This document shows positions 1-5,320 of a stretch of DNA of 5,320 nucleotides, piece by piece. Source of the DNA: a bacterium (GTDB taxonomy: Bacteria; SM23-31; JAUVVT01); the NCBI GenBank assembly GCA_030616165.1, contig JAUWXV010000249.1, positions 1-5,320 of the forward strand, written 5' to 3'. The notes below the pieces were generated by a model. It was not told the origin of the DNA. It saw only the letters and a list, made by a program, of their open reading frames with translations, and did not search any database. Made by a program: the position numbers and the translations under genes. Position 1 is the first letter of the stretch. Every line of letters starts with the position of its first letter.

Positions 1-60
1 TTATTTTTAAATCTTTTTACAAAAATATTCAATTGTAAAATATGGATTTAGGTTAATATT

Positions 61-88
61 GTAGAGACATGCCATGGCATGTCTCCAC
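61..88. repeat. Palindromic repeat, GAGACATGCC type
   Basis: Positions 64-85 are a perfect 22-bp palindrome with half-site GAGACATGCCA. Pairing resumes at 62/87 and 61/88 after one mismatch at 63/86, giving a 28-bp inverted repeat. It differs in sequence from the GACAGACA hairpins elsewhere in the window, so it is a second palindrome family. From general knowledge, palindromes opening with GTAGAGAC are dispersed repeats in several bacterial genomes. Only one copy is visible here, so dispersal in this genome cannot be confirmed. Confidence 0.7.
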
Positions 89-93
89 TTTTT
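61..93 (+). terminator. Possible intrinsic terminator upstream of murD
   Basis: The 61-88 palindrome would fold in RNA as a hairpin of about 9 bp around a tight CATG centre, with moderate G+C. It is followed at once by TTTTT at 89-93, so stem plus U-run resembles a Rho-independent terminator for a gene entering from the left. Against this, the palindrome may simply be a mobile repeat next to a chance T-run, and no upstream gene end is visible in 1-60. Confidence 0.35.
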
Positions 94-149
94 GCCGTGC
101 CATCTCACAAAAAAAGTTGCGAATTTAAAAATTTAGTAAGATTTGTTTC

Positions 150-199
150 TATACATATAAAATATGTCAGAAACTTATTTAACTAACAATAAAATTAGT
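150..199 (+). repeat. Decayed duplicate of the murD 5' end (pairs with 231-280)
   Basis: This segment aligns without gaps to 231-280 at an offset of exactly 81 bp. The 14 bp before the ATG match at 11 positions. Over the first 12 codons 27 of 36 bases match, and the encoded peptides are MSETYLTNNKIS here and MSEISVTGKKIS in MurD (7 of 12 identical). Many differences are single substitutions within codons. The similarity fades after the AGT codon at 197-199, where the hairpin element begins. The likeliest reading is an old duplication of the murD start, with the downstream copy kept as the working start. An AT-rich coincidence is unlikely because the match is in phase and anchored on the start codon. 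Confidence 0.65.
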
Positions 200-235
200 A
201 GGACAGACATTCCTGTCTGTCAATTATTGTTTTAA
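164..235 (+). other. 23-codon upstream ORF, truncated copy of the MurD N-terminus
   Basis: An ATG at 164 opens a 23-codon frame ending in TAA at 233-235. Its first 12 residues (MSETYLTNNKIS) resemble the MurD N-terminus, and the rest is read-through of the hairpin element and its flank. It is in the same frame as murD: after the TAA come only three codons before the murD ATG at 245, so one stop separates the two. There is no Shine-Dalgarno sequence. It may be an untranslated relic or a translated leader; nothing in the sequence decides this. Confidence 0.4.
197..221. repeat. Hairpin element copy 1 (murD upstream)
   Basis: The stem arms GACAGACA (202-209) and TGTCTGTC (214-221) flank loop TTCC (210-213), giving 8 perfect base pairs. 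The preceding AGTAGG matches the GTAGG before the other copies. The flanks are also partly complementary: AACAATA...ATT around 185-196 against AATTATTGTT at 222-231, with a small bulge, so the fold may extend to about 185-231. The element lies between the two copies of the murD start. Confidence 0.85.
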
Positions 236-244
236 ATATATAAT

Positions 245-1618
245 ATGTCAGAAATTTCTGTAACAGGAAAGAAAATCAGTGTAATGGGTGGAGGATTAAG
301 TGGGATTTCGGCGTCCATCATGCTTCAGAGTAAAGGAGCGGATGTATTTTTGTCAGAAATTGAAGACAACGAAGAAAAGCGAAAAACACTTTCACTACTT
401 GATACAAAAAATATCAAATATGAATTAGGCAAACATTCACCCGAAAAAATTCTTGACTCAGAAATCATTATTATAAGTCCGGGAATTTCGCCTGATATAC
501 CCATTATAAAAGAAGCAGTGAAACAAAATATTCCGATATACAGCGAGCTGGAAGCCGCATCTTGGTTCTGTGATTTACCAATCATCGCTGTGACAGGAAC
601 AAACGGCAAATCGACCACTGTGAACCTTTTAGGTGAAATATTTTCTGCTCAGAGAATTAAAAACATAGTTGTCGGAAACATCGGGCAGCCCTTTTCTGAT
701 GCAATTGAAATTATCAAAGAAAAGGAAATCGTTATCTCAGAGGTAAGCAGCTTCCAGCTCGAAAAAATACACAGTTTTCATCCAAAAATCTCAATCTTAC
801 TAAATGTAACTTGTGACCATATGGATAGATACAAAAATTTCGATGAATATCTAAAAACTAAAATGAAAATAACACAAAATCAAACTATAGATGACTTCTA
901 TATTTTTAACTATGATGATGAATACATTAATAAAATAAGTAAGAACCTTGAAATACCTCTATTCCCAATAAGTATGAAAGAAAAATTTGAAAATGGGACA
1001 TATCTTGAAAACTCCGGAATTATATTTTCAAAAAATGGATTAAAAGAGAAAATTATTCAAATAGATGATATATTGCTGAAAGGTGACCATAATATTTACA
1101 ACTGTATGGCTGCGGTCGATGCTGTAAAAATTTACAACTCTATTAATGAAAAAATTGCTCATTCACTTAAATCTTTTAAAGGACTTGAACACCGATTCGA
1201 ATTTGTAGATTCAATCGAAGGAGTTAATTTTATCAATGATTCAAAAGCAACAAATGTAGATTCGGTATTTTATGCACTGAAGTCAATAAGGAATCGCGTT
1301 ATACTCTTAGCAGGGGGGAGAGATAAAAAAGGAGATCTATCTGTATTAAGTAGTCTTATCAAGGAAAAAGTAAAAACTTTGATTCTATTCGGTGAAGCAG
1401 CAGAAAGGATGCAAAAGGAATGGACTAATCTCTCCCCCAATATTATTCTCTCTGATAGTTTTGAGGATGCATTTAATAAAGCCCGGGTTTCTGCAGAAAA
1501 AGGGGACACTATACTTCTTTCACCTGCTTGCTCAAGTTTCGATATGTTCAAAAACTTCGAGGAGAGGGGTGAAAAATTTAAAGAACTTGTGAAAAGACTG
1601 AAGGAAGATAATGAATAA
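245..1618 (+). CDS. murD: UDP-N-acetylmuramoyl-L-alanine--D-glutamate ligase
   Basis: MurD is the cytoplasmic ATP-dependent ligase that adds D-glutamate to UDP-MurNAc-L-alanine. The 457 residues fit the family. The N-terminal Rossmann-like domain has MGGGLSG near residues 14-20 and SPGIS at 78-82. The central Mur ligase domain has the P-loop TGTNGKST at 117-124 (Lys122), GNIGQP at 144-149, EVSSFQLE at 166-173 and NVTCDHMDRY at 187-196. Lys206 is the expected carbamylated lysine by alignment to YxxxKxxI. GDHNIYN (280-286) and LEHRFE (314-319) open the C-terminal domain, with NDSKATN (331-337), AGGRDKK (356-362) and SPACSSFDMF (426-435). The ATG at 245 is chosen because the next Met (residue 14) would remove the first strand, and because the upstream duplicate also starts MSE. 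No Shine-Dalgarno sequence precedes it. It overlaps ftsW by 8 bp. Confidence 0.97.
   Translation: MSEISVTGKKISVMGGGLSGISASIMLQSKGADVFLSEIEDNEEKRKTLSLLDTKNIKYELGKHSPEKILDSEIIIISPGISPDIPIIKEAVKQNIPIYSELEAASWFCDLPIIAVTGTNGKSTTVNLLGEIFSAQRIKNIVVGNIGQPFSDAIEIIKEKEIVISEVSSFQLEKIHSFHPKISILLNVTCDHMDRYKNFDEYLKTKMKITQNQTIDDFYIFNYDDEYINKISKNLEIPLFPISMKEKFENGTYLENSGIIFSKNGLKEKIIQIDDILLKGDHNIYNCMAAVDAVKIYNSINEKIAHSLKSFKGLEHRFEFVDSIEGVNFINDSKATNVDSVFYALKSIRNRVILLAGGRDKKGDLSVLSSLIKEKVKTLILFGEAAERMQKEWTNLSPNIILSDSFEDAFNKARVSAEKGDTILLSPACSSFDMFKNFEERGEKFKELVKRLKEDNE
1601..1607 (+). promoter_or_regulatory. Shine-Dalgarno-like AAGGAAG for ftsW
   Basis: AAGGAAG lies inside the last codons of murD and ends 3 bases before the ftsW ATG. 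The spacing is short unless only the AAGG part pairs. It is the only purine-rich SD-like site among the four gene starts, and it may be dictated by the Lys-Glu-Asp codons of MurD. Translational coupling through the 8-bp overlap could matter more. Confidence 0.4.
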
Positions 1619-2753
1619 CAATACTTTAGATTTCAGATTACTCGCAGTTGTGCTTTTTCTGGTTATGATTGGGACAGTGATGGTTTACAGTTCAAGTTCT
1701 ATGTTGGCTTATGTCAAGTACAATGATTCACTTTACTTCTTGAAAAAACATCTTATTAGGGTCTTTCTTGGAATTTCACTTATGTTTATTATTATGAAGA
1801 TTGATTACCAGTTTTATAGGTCGATTTCAATTCCCATTCTCCTTATAGGTTTAGGTTTTCTTTCATATATGGCTATTTCAAATGATATAGAAAAAATCAG
1901 AGGAGTTTCAAGGTGGGTAAAAATCTTCAATCTCAGTTTACAGCCTTCAGAATTGATGAAATATGCACTTGTATTTTATATGGCAGATGCAATTGTAAGA
2001 AAAAAGGAAAAGTTATCAAGTTTTGTTAATGGGTATCTTCCACTTATAAGCATACTTGCAATTGTATTAGTTTTAATTATCCACGAACCCGATCTTGGAA
2101 CTGCTTGTATTATCTTTATGATTATATTTACACTATTTTTTGCTGGAAACGTTAAAATATCACATATGATTGGAACACTAATAGCGTGCATACCAATTGG
2201 GTATATTATCGTATTCTGGTCCCCTTATAAATATCAAATTAAAAGAATAATTACTTATTTTAATCCTGATTACGACCCGCTTGGTATGGGCTATCAAATC
2301 AAGCAATCCCTTATAGGACTCGGAAACGGAGGCATTTGGGGCGAGGGTCTCGGACAGGGTAAACAAAAACTCCTATTTTTGCCCGAACCTTACAAAGATT
2401 TTATATTTTCAATTATCGGTGAAGAACTTGGATTCATTGGAACATGTGTCATATTAATCTTATTTCTATATATATTATGGAGAGGAATTGAAATTGCTTC
2501 ATCTGCACCTGACCTGTACGGAACTCTACTTGCAACAGGGATTACTCTTACTATAGTTATATCTGCTCTTGTAAATATGGCTGTTGTATGCAATCTAATC
2601 CCAACTACTGGTTTCCCTCTCCCATTTATTAGTTTCGGTGGAACCGCCCTTCTTATTTCTCTTATGGCTGTGGGAGTTCTATTGAATATTTCATCTAAAT
2701 GCGAAATTAATAAAAATAAATTTGATGGTAATAATAAATCAATATATAGATAA
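1611..2753 (+). CDS. ftsW: SEDS-family septal peptidoglycan glycosyltransferase FtsW
   Basis: FtsW is a polytopic membrane enzyme that polymerises glycan strands from lipid II at the septum, working with a class B PBP. The 380 residues begin with a transmembrane segment near 8-25 and contain about ten hydrophobic stretches. SEDS signatures visible are GVSRWVKI near 98-105, QPSE at 111-114, EPDLGTA at 159-165, the GNGGIWGEGLGQGKQ loop from 238, and LPEPYKDFIFSIIGEELG from 257. Asp263 in the last motif corresponds to the catalytic aspartate of the family. The C-terminal PTTGFPLPFISFGGT (331-345) favours FtsW over RodA, as does its place between murD and murC. The start overlaps the murD stop (ATGAATAA), implying one transcript and coupled translation. 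A polar Lys/Asn-rich tail of about 20 residues follows the last membrane segment. Confidence 0.95.
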   Translation: MNNNTLDFRLLAVVLFLVMIGTVMVYSSSSMLAYVKYNDSLYFLKKHLIRVFLGISLMFIIMKIDYQFYRSISIPILLIGLGFLSYMAISNDIEKIRGVSRWVKIFNLSLQPSELMKYALVFYMADAIVRKKEKLSSFVNGYLPLISILAIVLVLIIHEPDLGTACIIFMIIFTLFFAGNVKISHMIGTLIACIPIGYIIVFWSPYKYQIKRIITYFNPDYDPLGMGYQIKQSLIGLGNGGIWGEGLGQGKQKLLFLPEPYKDFIFSIIGEELGFIGTCVILILFLYILWRGIEIASSAPDLYGTLLATGITLTIVISALVNMAVVCNLIPTTGFPLPFISFGGTALLISLMAVGVLLNISSKCEINKNKFDGNNKSIYR

Positions 2754-2766
2754 TATGTATTTGGAT

Positions 2767-2783
2767 GGACAAAAATGTCTGCC
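2767..2783 (-). repeat. Probable degenerate hairpin element copy (reverse orientation)
   Basis: On the minus strand this reads GGCAGACATTTTTGTCC. That matches the element core CAGACATT-TTGTC, with part of the 3' arm lost. A short stem (GACA with TGTC) remains. It lies 14 bp after the ftsW stop. The match is short, so a chance resemblance is possible. Confidence 0.4.
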
Positions 2784-2842
2784 ATACCCTATGTTTTATT
2801 ATGAGAAAGTTGTAATATCAATATGATAAAAAAGTAATAATG

Positions 2843-2868
2843 GTAGGTCAGACATTCCTGTCTGACAA
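2843..2868. repeat. Hairpin element copy 2 (murC upstream)
   Basis: GTAGG precedes stem arms GTCAGACA (2847-2854) and TGTCTGAC (2859-2866) around loop TTCC (2855-2858), giving 8 perfect base pairs. Compared with copy 1, the second base of the left arm changed from A to T and its partner changed from T to A, so pairing is kept. CAA follows, as at the other copies. The element ends about 40 bp before the murC start. Confidence 0.85.
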
Positions 2869-2906
2869 TGTCAAAAATTTAACAAATTTGGTAAAAACAA
2901 AATCGA

Positions 2907-4277
2907 ATGTATCTCGGAAAAGTAAAAAAAATTCATTTTGTCGGAATTGGTGGAATCGGAATGAGCGGAATAGCGGAATTAATGACAAATTTGGGATATG
3001 ATGTGACTGGTTCAGATATAAATGAAACTGAAATAACCGAACACCTTAAAACTTTGGGTGCAGTAATTTACAGAGGCCATTCTTCAAAAAATATTTCTGA
3101 TGTGGATATGGTTGTCTATTCATCTGCAATTAAAATGGATAACCCGGAATTAAAAGAAGCGATTAAAAAAAATATACTTGTTATTCGAAGAGCCGAGATG
3201 CTTGGAGAGATAATGCGAATGAAATACAGTATCGCTGTTGCGGGAACACATGGTAAAACTACGACTACATCTATGATTGGACTTGTCTTAACCGAAGGAG
3301 GATTTGATCCTACTCTTATTATAGGTGGAAAACTCAAATCTCTGAAATCAAATATAAAACTTGGTGAAGGGGAATTTTTGGTTGCAGAAGCCGATGAATT
3401 TGACCGAACCTTTTTAAAACTTATACCAACATTCGCCGTTATCACAACTATAGAATCCGAACACCTTGATTGCTATAAAAATTTAGACGAGATAAAAGAT
3501 GCATTTGTTGAATTTGCTAATAGAATTCCATTTTTTGGAACTGTTACTTTATGTATTGATGAAATAGGAGTCAGAGATATAGTTCAAAGAATCGGGAGGA
3601 GAGTTTCAACATACGGAATTTCAAAAGATGCCGACCTTTATGCCGAACCGATAATGTTTGATAAAAATAAATCAAAATTCAAAGCAATTTACAAAAATAA
3701 AACTATTGGTGATTTTCTAATCAATTGTCCTGGAATTCACAATATAAAAAATTCACTTGCTGCAATTTCTATTGGGCTTGAACTTGAAATCCCTGTTGAA
3801 AAAATTAAAAAAGCCCTTTCACAATTCACTGGTGTCCATAGGAGATTCGAAATAAAGGCTGATATTAATAATATATTGATAGTTGATGACTACGCCCATC
3901 ACCCGACTGAAATCGAAGCGACTCTCAAAGCAGCAAAAATCGGCTGGAATGGAAGAATTATTACAATATTTCAGCCGCATCTATACTCAAGAACAAGAGA
4001 CTTTTACAGGATATTCGGTCAGGCATTCTTTGATTCTGATATTCTAATTGTTACTGAAATTTATCCGGCAAGAGAAAAACCTATTGATGGCATTTCAGGA
4101 AGATTAATTTCAGATAGAGCCTTGGAATGTGGGCACAAAAATGCTCTTTTCTTATCCTCTGAATTTGAAATTATAGAATATGTTAAAAAAATTGTTAAAC
4201 CAAACGACATTGTGATTACAATGGGGGCTGGTGATATCTGGAAAATCGGTGAGAAGTTAATTCAAATTTTAAAGTAA
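2907..4277 (+). CDS. murC: UDP-N-acetylmuramate--L-alanine ligase
   Basis: MurC is the cytoplasmic ATP-dependent ligase that adds the first amino acid, L-alanine, to UDP-MurNAc, one step before MurD. The 456 residues match the family. Visible in order: HFVGIGGIGMSG (10-21) in the UDP-binding N-terminal domain, the P-loop GTHGKTTT (113-120, Lys117), EADEFDRTF (161-169), ESEHLDCY (183-190), GIHNIKN (276-282), GVHRRFE (309-315), DDYAHHPTEI (327-336), FQPHLYSRTRDF (355-366), YPARE (386-390) and MGAGDI (439-444). The wording EADEFDR...ITTIESEHLD is what I recall from Bacteroidota/Chlorobiota MurC proteins. The ATG at 2907 leaves the usual short N-terminus before the glycine-rich loop; the only upstream in-frame ATG (2868) meets a stop after four codons. 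No Shine-Dalgarno sequence is seen. It ends in tandem stops TAATAA, 16 bp before ftsQ. Confidence 0.98.
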   Translation: MYLGKVKKIHFVGIGGIGMSGIAELMTNLGYDVTGSDINETEITEHLKTLGAVIYRGHSSKNISDVDMVVYSSAIKMDNPELKEAIKKNILVIRRAEMLGEIMRMKYSIAVAGTHGKTTTTSMIGLVLTEGGFDPTLIIGGKLKSLKSNIKLGEGEFLVAEADEFDRTFLKLIPTFAVITTIESEHLDCYKNLDEIKDAFVEFANRIPFFGTVTLCIDEIGVRDIVQRIGRRVSTYGISKDADLYAEPIMFDKNKSKFKAIYKNKTIGDFLINCPGIHNIKNSLAAISIGLELEIPVEKIKKALSQFTGVHRRFEIKADINNILIVDDYAHHPTEIEATLKAAKIGWNGRIITIFQPHLYSRTRDFYRIFGQAFFDSDILIVTEIYPAREKPIDGISGRLISDRALECGHKNALFLSSEFEIIEYVKKIVKPNDIVITMGAGDIWKIGEKLIQILK

Positions 4278-4293
4278 TAAAATTATTTAGATA

Positions 4294-5028
4294 ATGAAAT
4301 TAATCAAATTAACTGCATTACTGTTATTTACAATATCAATAATTATATGCCTTGTTTTTCTTGCTAAAAGATGGATGGATAGTTCTCCTCTATTTATTAT
4401 TAGAAATACAGAGGTTAAAGGAAATGAACTTATAACAGAAAAAAGCATCGTTTCACTGGTGGATATAAATTCAAATATGCGAATCTTTAATATTGACAAA
4501 AATAATATAAAAGATAAAATAACGACTAATCCATTTGTAAAAGAAGTCTCAATAAAAAGAATATTCCCTTCCACAATTTCAATAAAAATAAGAGAAAAGA
4601 CCCCTTTAGCATTTGTGGTTTCAAAAAAGAATTATATTTTGTCTGAAATGGGAGAACTTTTGCCGATGCCGGAGCAAATAAGGGTATATGATATACCAAC
4701 AATAACAGGTATAAAAAATATCGAAGAAAGAGTGAAAAATAATGAAATTATTGAAGAACTAAAAATTTCTTCTGAAATATTAAATCTTCTAAAAAAAGAA
4801 GAAATAAGTCTTTATTATGATATTTCGGAAATAAATTTTGAAAACTCTAATCTCATGATATTTTACCTTTATGAAAAAGCAATTCCTGTTTTTTTAAATA
4901 AAACGGACCTATATAGAAAATTTTATTATTTCAGTCAATTTCTGGAATATGCTAAATTTGAAAAATTATTAAAAAACATAAAATACATTAATCTCTGCTA
5001 TAAAGACCAGATTATTATGAAAGAATAG
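4294..5028 (+). CDS. ftsQ: Cell division protein FtsQ/DivIB
   Basis: FtsQ is a bitopic inner-membrane protein that links early and late divisome proteins through its extracytoplasmic part. The 244 residues show a short cytoplasmic N-terminus, one transmembrane helix (about 5-24), a POTRA domain (about 33-102, with VKGNELITEKSIVSL and NPFVKEVSIKRIFPSTISIKIREKTP split around it) and a beta domain to the end. The final INLCYKDQIIMKE resembles the last beta strand of the family, so the C-terminus looks authentic rather than created by the repeat. Sequence conservation in this family is low; the call rests on architecture plus position after murC. The last nine codons including the stop form the beginning of unit 1 of the downstream 74-bp array. 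There is no Shine-Dalgarno sequence. ftsA and ftsZ would be expected next but lie outside the window, if present. Confidence 0.88.
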   Translation: MKLIKLTALLLFTISIIICLVFLAKRWMDSSPLFIIRNTEVKGNELITEKSIVSLVDINSNMRIFNIDKNNIKDKITTNPFVKEVSIKRIFPSTISIKIREKTPLAFVVSKKNYILSEMGELLPMPEQIRVYDIPTITGIKNIEERVKNNEIIEELKISSEILNLLKKEEISLYYDISEINFENSNLMIFYLYEKAIPVFLNKTDLYRKFYYFSQFLEYAKFEKLLKNIKYINLCYKDQIIMKE

Positions 5029-5050
5029 ATAGTTTGCGATGAAACTGGTA

Positions 5051-5072
5051 GGACAGACATTCTTGTCTGTCC
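5051..5072. repeat. Hairpin element copy 3 (array unit 1)
   Basis: Arms GGACAGACA and TGTCTGTCC pair perfectly over 9 bp around loop TTCT. GGTA precedes it and AATAAAG follows. It lies 22 bp after the ftsQ stop. There is no T-run after the stem on either strand, so it is not a classical terminator. Confidence 0.9.
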
Positions 5073-5124
5073 AATAAAGACCAGAATATTATGAAGGAAT
5101 AGAGAGTTTTCAATGAAACTGGCA

Positions 5125-5146
5125 GGACAGACATTCTTGTCTGTCC
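5125..5146. repeat. Hairpin element copy 4 (array unit 2)
   Basis: The 9-bp stem and TTCT loop are identical to copy 3, exactly 74 bp downstream. The base two before the stem is C here (GGCAGG) instead of T, so the flanking sequence varies while the stem does not. Confidence 0.9.
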
Positions 5147-5198
5147 AATAAAGACCAGAATATAATGAAGGAATGGAGAGTTTTCAATGAAACTGGTA

Positions 5199-5220
5199 GG
5201 ACAGACATTCTTGTCTGTCC
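5199..5220. repeat. Hairpin element copy 5 (array unit 3)
   Basis: The stem and loop are identical to copies 3 and 4 at the same 74-bp spacing. In this unit the codons copied from the ftsQ end read KEW instead of KE-stop, since TAG became TGG; the copied coding sequence is evidently not maintained. Confidence 0.9.
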
Positions 5221-5272
5221 AATAAAGACCAGAATATAATGAAAGAATAGAGAGTTTTCAATGAAACTGGTA

Positions 5273-5294
5273 GGACAGACATTCTTGTCTGTCC
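5273..5294. repeat. Hairpin element copy 6 (array unit 4)
   Basis: This is another identical 9-bp stem with loop TTCT. It is followed by the first 25 bases of a fifth unit, in which the ATG copied from ftsQ has become ATA, before the window ends. Confidence 0.9.
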
Positions 5295-5320
5295 AATAAA
5301 GACCAGAATATAATAAAGGA

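Follow-up and report, generated by a model that had tools for sequence, protein, structure and literature searches.

We analysed contig JAUWXV010000249.1 (positions 1-5,320) of assembly GCA_030616165.1. The window is this whole contig, C10, with a length of 5320 bp. The source genome, G000, comprises 3.74 Mb in 343 contigs and is 90% complete. The contig ends in a tandem array of repeats that starts inside ftsQ, a gene of the dcw cell-division operon. The ftsQ open reading frame (ORF; 4294–5028, forward strand) encodes a protein of 244 residues with an FtsQ-type POTRA domain (Pfam PF08478, E-value 2.4e-14). Its last codons and stop (5000–5028), delimited by codon alignment with the FtsQ ends of two related genomes, are part of the first repeat unit.

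Tandem Repeats Finder identified a single array in the window, at 5000–5318, with a period of 74 nt, 4.3 copies, 95% matches, no indels, and a score of 561. The best score obtained from 200 composition-preserving shuffles was 66, so that chance does not account for the array. The array had been described beforehand as exact, which holds for the strict 74-nt period and not for the sequence. The units, all on the forward strand and delimited by their mutual comparison, start at positions 5000, 5074, 5148, 5222, and 5296. Unit 1 (5000–5073) contains the in-frame end of ftsQ, unit 2 (5074–5147) and unit 4 (5222–5295) are complete, unit 3 (5148–5221) has its copy of the ftsQ stop altered to TGG, and unit 5 (5296–5320) is truncated to 25 nt by the contig end. 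Each full unit is composed of the 29-nt ftsQ end including the stop, a trailer of approximately 19 nt, and GTAG followed by a 22-nt hairpin. The ftsQ part (5000–5028) has the codons ..AT AAA GAC CAG ATT ATT ATG AAA GAA TAG and, together with the trailer up to GTAG, takes up 48 nt, in agreement with the preliminary description of about 50 bp of the ftsQ 3' end fused to a 22-nt hairpin. The initial G of the hairpin, GGACAGACATTCTTGTCTGTCC, is the final base of GTAG. All internal unit junctions read GTCC-A-ATAAAG.

The hairpin of unit 1 (5051–5072) has a 9-bp stem and a 4-nt loop, with a folding energy of about -9.5 kcal/mol as single-stranded DNA (z about -5.3). Allowing up to two mismatches, the palindrome has approximately 131 sites in the 3.74 Mb of G000; the reversed pattern, used as a control, has none. 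Among 84 aligned close copies, the four bases just 5' of the hairpin are G, T, A, and G in 79, 76, 74, and 77 copies, respectively, while the 3' side is mostly CA, so that the GTAG tag is one-sided. Such a one-sided tag defines the GTAG class of repetitive extragenic palindromes (REPs; PMC3733652). Nearly all of the sites (97 of 107) lie outside ORFs of at least 120 codons, as judged from mechanically called ORFs only. About a fifth of the REPs outside long ORFs (19 of 90) are located within 50 nt behind a stop codon. Inverted doublets with GTAG outside occur at four loci with a constant start-to-start spacing of 34 nt, and there are five inverted pairs in G000 with GTAG inside. Because of these dispersed copies, the 5' GTAG, the inverted doublets, and copies flanking genes of IS200-like REP-associated tyrosine transposases (RAYTs) in three other phyla, the array hairpin is a REP element, of the GACAGACATTCYTGTCTGTC family. 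The preliminary description missed this dispersed identity of the hairpin, which makes the arrangement at ftsQ much more ordinary. The array contains four REPs on the forward strand: GTAG followed by GACAGACATTCTTGTCTGTC(C) at 5048–5072, a copy with the tag GCAG at 5122–5146, and further copies at 5196–5220 and 5270–5294. The first was assigned by family match, GTAG tag, and hairpin, the others by family match and tag alignment. A search of the window against Rfam gave no match. A search for the REP sequence in the text of the literature found no relevant paper; figures, such as a published consensus list, lay outside that search.

The FtsQ end was compared with those of the nearest relative, G001, from the same family, and of a class-mate, G004. 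FtsQ of G001 is 61% identical to that of the window across its whole length. The C-terminal ends are NLCYKDQIIITEKTN in G001, NLNYKDMIVVKE in G004, and NLCYKDQIIMKE in the window. Between ftsQ and ftsA, G001 has a gap of 32 nt and G004 one of 22 nt, and neither gap contains a repeat. As both relatives share the FtsQ end but lack the array, host sequence was co-amplified with the hairpin, and by this comparison the gene end is native and the array is not. The proposal that the repeat begins inside ftsQ is thereby borne out. The converse, that the array created the ftsQ end, is ruled out by the relatives that carry the end without the array.

The ftsA gene of G000 is located on contig C32, with its start codon 60 nt from the contig end. 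The preliminary description expected ftsA after the array; it is absent from C10, and its placement just inside the end of C32 fits that expectation. The array had been said to run off the window, and since the window is the whole contig, it is the assembly itself that ends inside the array. Most likely, the array fills the gap between ftsQ and ftsA and broke the assembly. With 292 nt following the ftsQ stop on C10 and 60 nt preceding ftsA on C32, the gap in G000 would be at least 352 nt if the two contigs join as synteny suggests. The end of C32 before ftsA reads CATTCTT, a string also present in the loop region of the REP, and this possible trace of the other end of the array is suggestive only. 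A search for that other end found no second high-identity copy of the array elsewhere in G000.

Unit 1 differs from units 2–4 at 5–7 sites, whereas units 2–4 differ from each other at 2–3. At unit position 13, unit 1 has an Ile codon, which is also present in G001, and all later units have in common a derived Asn codon. A duplicated copy of unit 1 is therefore the probable ancestor of the later units. A change at unit position 17, common to units 3–5 and absent from units 1 and 2, fits outward growth of the array. The gene-proximal unit had been proposed as the original because it is the most diverged. Divergence by itself is no proof, since units at the edge of an array are the least homogenised and coding selection acts on no unit but the first, and these two effects could mimic part of the pattern. 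The shared Ile codon supports the proposal, and unit 1 is likely the original unit.

Head-to-tail REP pairs or arrays occur at no fewer than 14 loci in G000, a lower bound counted from the loci inspected, each with a locus-specific unit and periods from 25 to 101 nt. One of these arrays, at C274:25351-25538, follows an sdhB-like gene and carries that gene's final 11 codons (GKKFGLSKIYK) and stop in its unit. The homologous protein of G001 ends in KKKFGPAKLYK, so this end is conserved as well. Two more array units, one at a proS-like gene and one at another gene, begin within the last one or two codons. Because roughly one REP in five follows a stop codon at a distance of up to 50 nt, a duplicated flank of 30–60 nt sometimes includes a gene end, and ftsQ needs no special property to explain the co-amplification. 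Two observations were made beside these arrays. Locus L042 (contig C192 of G000) has two near-identical five-copy arrays of a 29-nt REP unit with the same flanks, at 1303–1442 and 3457–3596, approximately 2 kb apart; the second is near the contig end, and the pair may be a segmental duplication or an assembly effect. The sdhB-like frame opens with 20–26 residues that precede its likely true start and that find matches in short frames at other places in G000 (C76:8968-9045, C32:17360-17422, and C21:11308-11367) and in G001 (C368:566-628), hinting at a dispersed repeat upstream of genes.

In public genomes, the exact 22-mer is also present, among the matches listed, in Acidobacteria, Ktedonobacteria, Planctomycetes, Calditrichaeota, Zixibacteria, Ignavibacteriae, Verrucomicrobia, and Deltaproteobacteria. 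At three of these loci, a RAYT gene (Y1_Tnp, PF01797) has the REP or a close variant on either side, no more than 100 nt away: L166 of Calditrichaeota, L124 of Ignavibacteriae, and L118 of Deltaproteobacteria. The three RAYTs form one family, with 52–69% identity to the first. G004 contains a damaged RAYT of related type with a REP adjoining. In G000, seven Y1_Tnp hits were obtained, including an interrupted one; several adjoin other GTAG hairpin families, and none of the seven is bracketed by the REP of the array. As no intact RAYT of the cognate type was found in this 90%-complete genome, the route by which the REP arrived at ftsQ can only be conjectured.

Several further observations concern RAYT loci. 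The RAYT gene at L221 (1102–2276; contig C182 of G000, at about 14.8–15.2 kb) lies amid numerous copies of another hairpin, starting GTAGCCGAGCCTGTCC, apparently its own REP family. In L117 (2350–7293) and L118 (1–1125), a RAYT is accompanied by in-frame REPs within the long open frame of a type ISP/N6-methylase restriction gene. The L117 frame has 1648 residues, that of L118 resembles the end of such a gene, and the REP units, spaced at multiples of 3 nt, translate as GQTFLSV-like repeats. The REP of the array also occurs 19 times in G045, a genome placed elsewhere in the bacterial tree, which gives 21 matches to the RAYT profile.

We conclude with considerable confidence that, at this locus, a GTAG-tagged REP and the 3' end of ftsQ on its left were amplified together into a head-to-tail array. 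Judging from the empty sites of the relatives, a REP would have been placed approximately 20 nt behind the ftsQ stop, in a former ftsQ–ftsA gap of 20–35 nt. The segment comprising the last 29 nt of ftsQ and everything up to the REP end was then duplicated, as the units show, by a mechanism that we surmise. The direct repeats probably expanded by replication slippage or unequal recombination, which hairpins forming on the single-stranded template may have aided. The in-frame first copy still terminates FtsQ, and the later copies drift as noncoding DNA. The array is expected to be largely neutral, with a possible influence on the stability of the ftsQ mRNA 3' end or on the expression of ftsA. 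Three points weigh against this reconstruction. The visible junction has almost no microhomology, and slippage is our inference. No intact near-cognate RAYT was found in the 90%-complete G000, where the best match scores 70.7 bits, against 177.8 bits in G004. Finally, the distal end of the array is absent from the assembly, so that the copy number and the original right-hand junction are missing.

The main rival for the mechanism is a RAYT-mediated route, which is possible, if unlikely. Cleavage by TnpA-REP enzymes takes place at C|T or C|A, 5' or 3' of their own REP (PMC8266576). On this route, the enzyme would nick a single DNA strand both within ftsQ, at a C|T, and just 3' of the REP, at the C|A, and would join the ends into head-to-tail copies of the enclosed segment. 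The dinucleotide at 4998|4999 in ftsQ is indeed C|T and adjoins the start of the unit, CA follows the REP consensus, and RAYTs flank the same REP in other genomes. However, a clean transfer to C|TATAAAG would leave a T where the junctions have an A, so that an extra substitution is needed, and no intact cognate RAYT was found in G000. We know of no experimental demonstration of tandem amplification by a RAYT, which also counts against this route. The broader idea that the REP/RAYT system copies neighbouring coding DNA, by joining a nick in a gene 3' end to the 3' side of the REP, appears distinctly doubtful. If true, REPs would be seeds that repeatedly amplify gene ends, as independently at ftsQ and the sdhB-like gene.

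It is quite improbable that the array was selected as a regulatory element, with hairpins between ftsQ and ftsA stabilising the mRNA or attenuating transcription and thus setting the level of FtsA and FtsZ. The array sits in an essential operon, its hairpins are stable, and REPs have been hypothesised to influence mRNA stability and termination (PMC3733652). Yet the relatives have a gap of 22–32 nt without an array, the units are drifting, similar arrays stand behind unrelated genes, and Rfam gave no match. An assembly artefact, in which a short-read assembly multiplied a single unit, could be suspected since C10 breaks off within the array and several more contigs that carry arrays stop close to one. 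It is very hard to reconcile with point changes that distinguish all four full units and the partial one, with assemblers being more prone to collapse repeats than to multiply them, and with the same arrangement at 13 further loci, several of them mid-contig. Regularly spaced palindromic repeats also recall clustered regularly interspaced short palindromic repeats (CRISPR) or an integron attC array; these are ruled out, as the whole 74-nt unit repeats, including the 'spacer', and the palindrome is dispersed genome-wide.

Arrays of this kind, REPs amplified together with their flanks, are a known phenomenon, as tandem REP clusters including flanking DNA have been described (PMC3733652, PMC3116915). 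The REP of the window resembles the GTAG-tagged families of Di Nocera et al., which are palindromes of 20–40 bp with GTAG at one end and a short loop, present as many dispersed copies, dimers, and tandem clusters with flanking DNA; the array differs in that its flank includes ftsQ coding sequence. The REP/REPIN clusters of Pseudomonas fluorescens SBW25 (Bertels and Rainey 2011, PMC3116915) likewise have ordered, near-identical tandem units with flanks and separate RAYT genes. SBW25, however, has mostly inverted doublets (REPINs), whereas G000 has mostly single REPs arranged head to tail and no cognate RAYT was found in it. As in REPtrons, the TnpA-REP systems with Y1_Tnp (PF01797) transposases, the same REP brackets RAYTs in Calditrichaeota, Ignavibacteriae, and Deltaproteobacteria, but the array carries no transposase and the RAYTs of G000 adjoin other hairpin families. 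New are the lineage, the locus, the inclusion of codons of an essential gene, and the abundance of head-to-tail arrays. REPs have entered the dcw operon of a little-known bacterial class and pulled the last codons of ftsQ into a growing array. Such loci are natural copy-number markers and a cause of assembly breaks, as with ftsQ and ftsA on different contigs. The occurrence of the 22-nt palindrome across many phyla, bracketing RAYTs in several, offers a useful test of the spread of REPs between distant bacteria.

Upstream of ftsQ, the window contains murD (245–1618), ftsW (1611–2753), and murC (2907–4277), identified from the ORF list and by Pfam search. A single REP on the forward strand precedes murD (198–221), and a single variant, GTAG-GTCAGACATTCCTGTCTGAC, is located on the same strand in the gap between ftsW and murC (2843–2866). 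This gap (2754–2906) measures 153 nt in G000 compared with a few nt in G001, and its REP is, from this difference, a second arrival within the operon that carries the ftsQ array. A second palindromic family, GTAGAGACATGCCATGGCATGTCTC, likewise starting with GTAG, is present at 61–88 of the window. It has 28 forward and 29 reverse matches in G000, and most of its sites match both strands.
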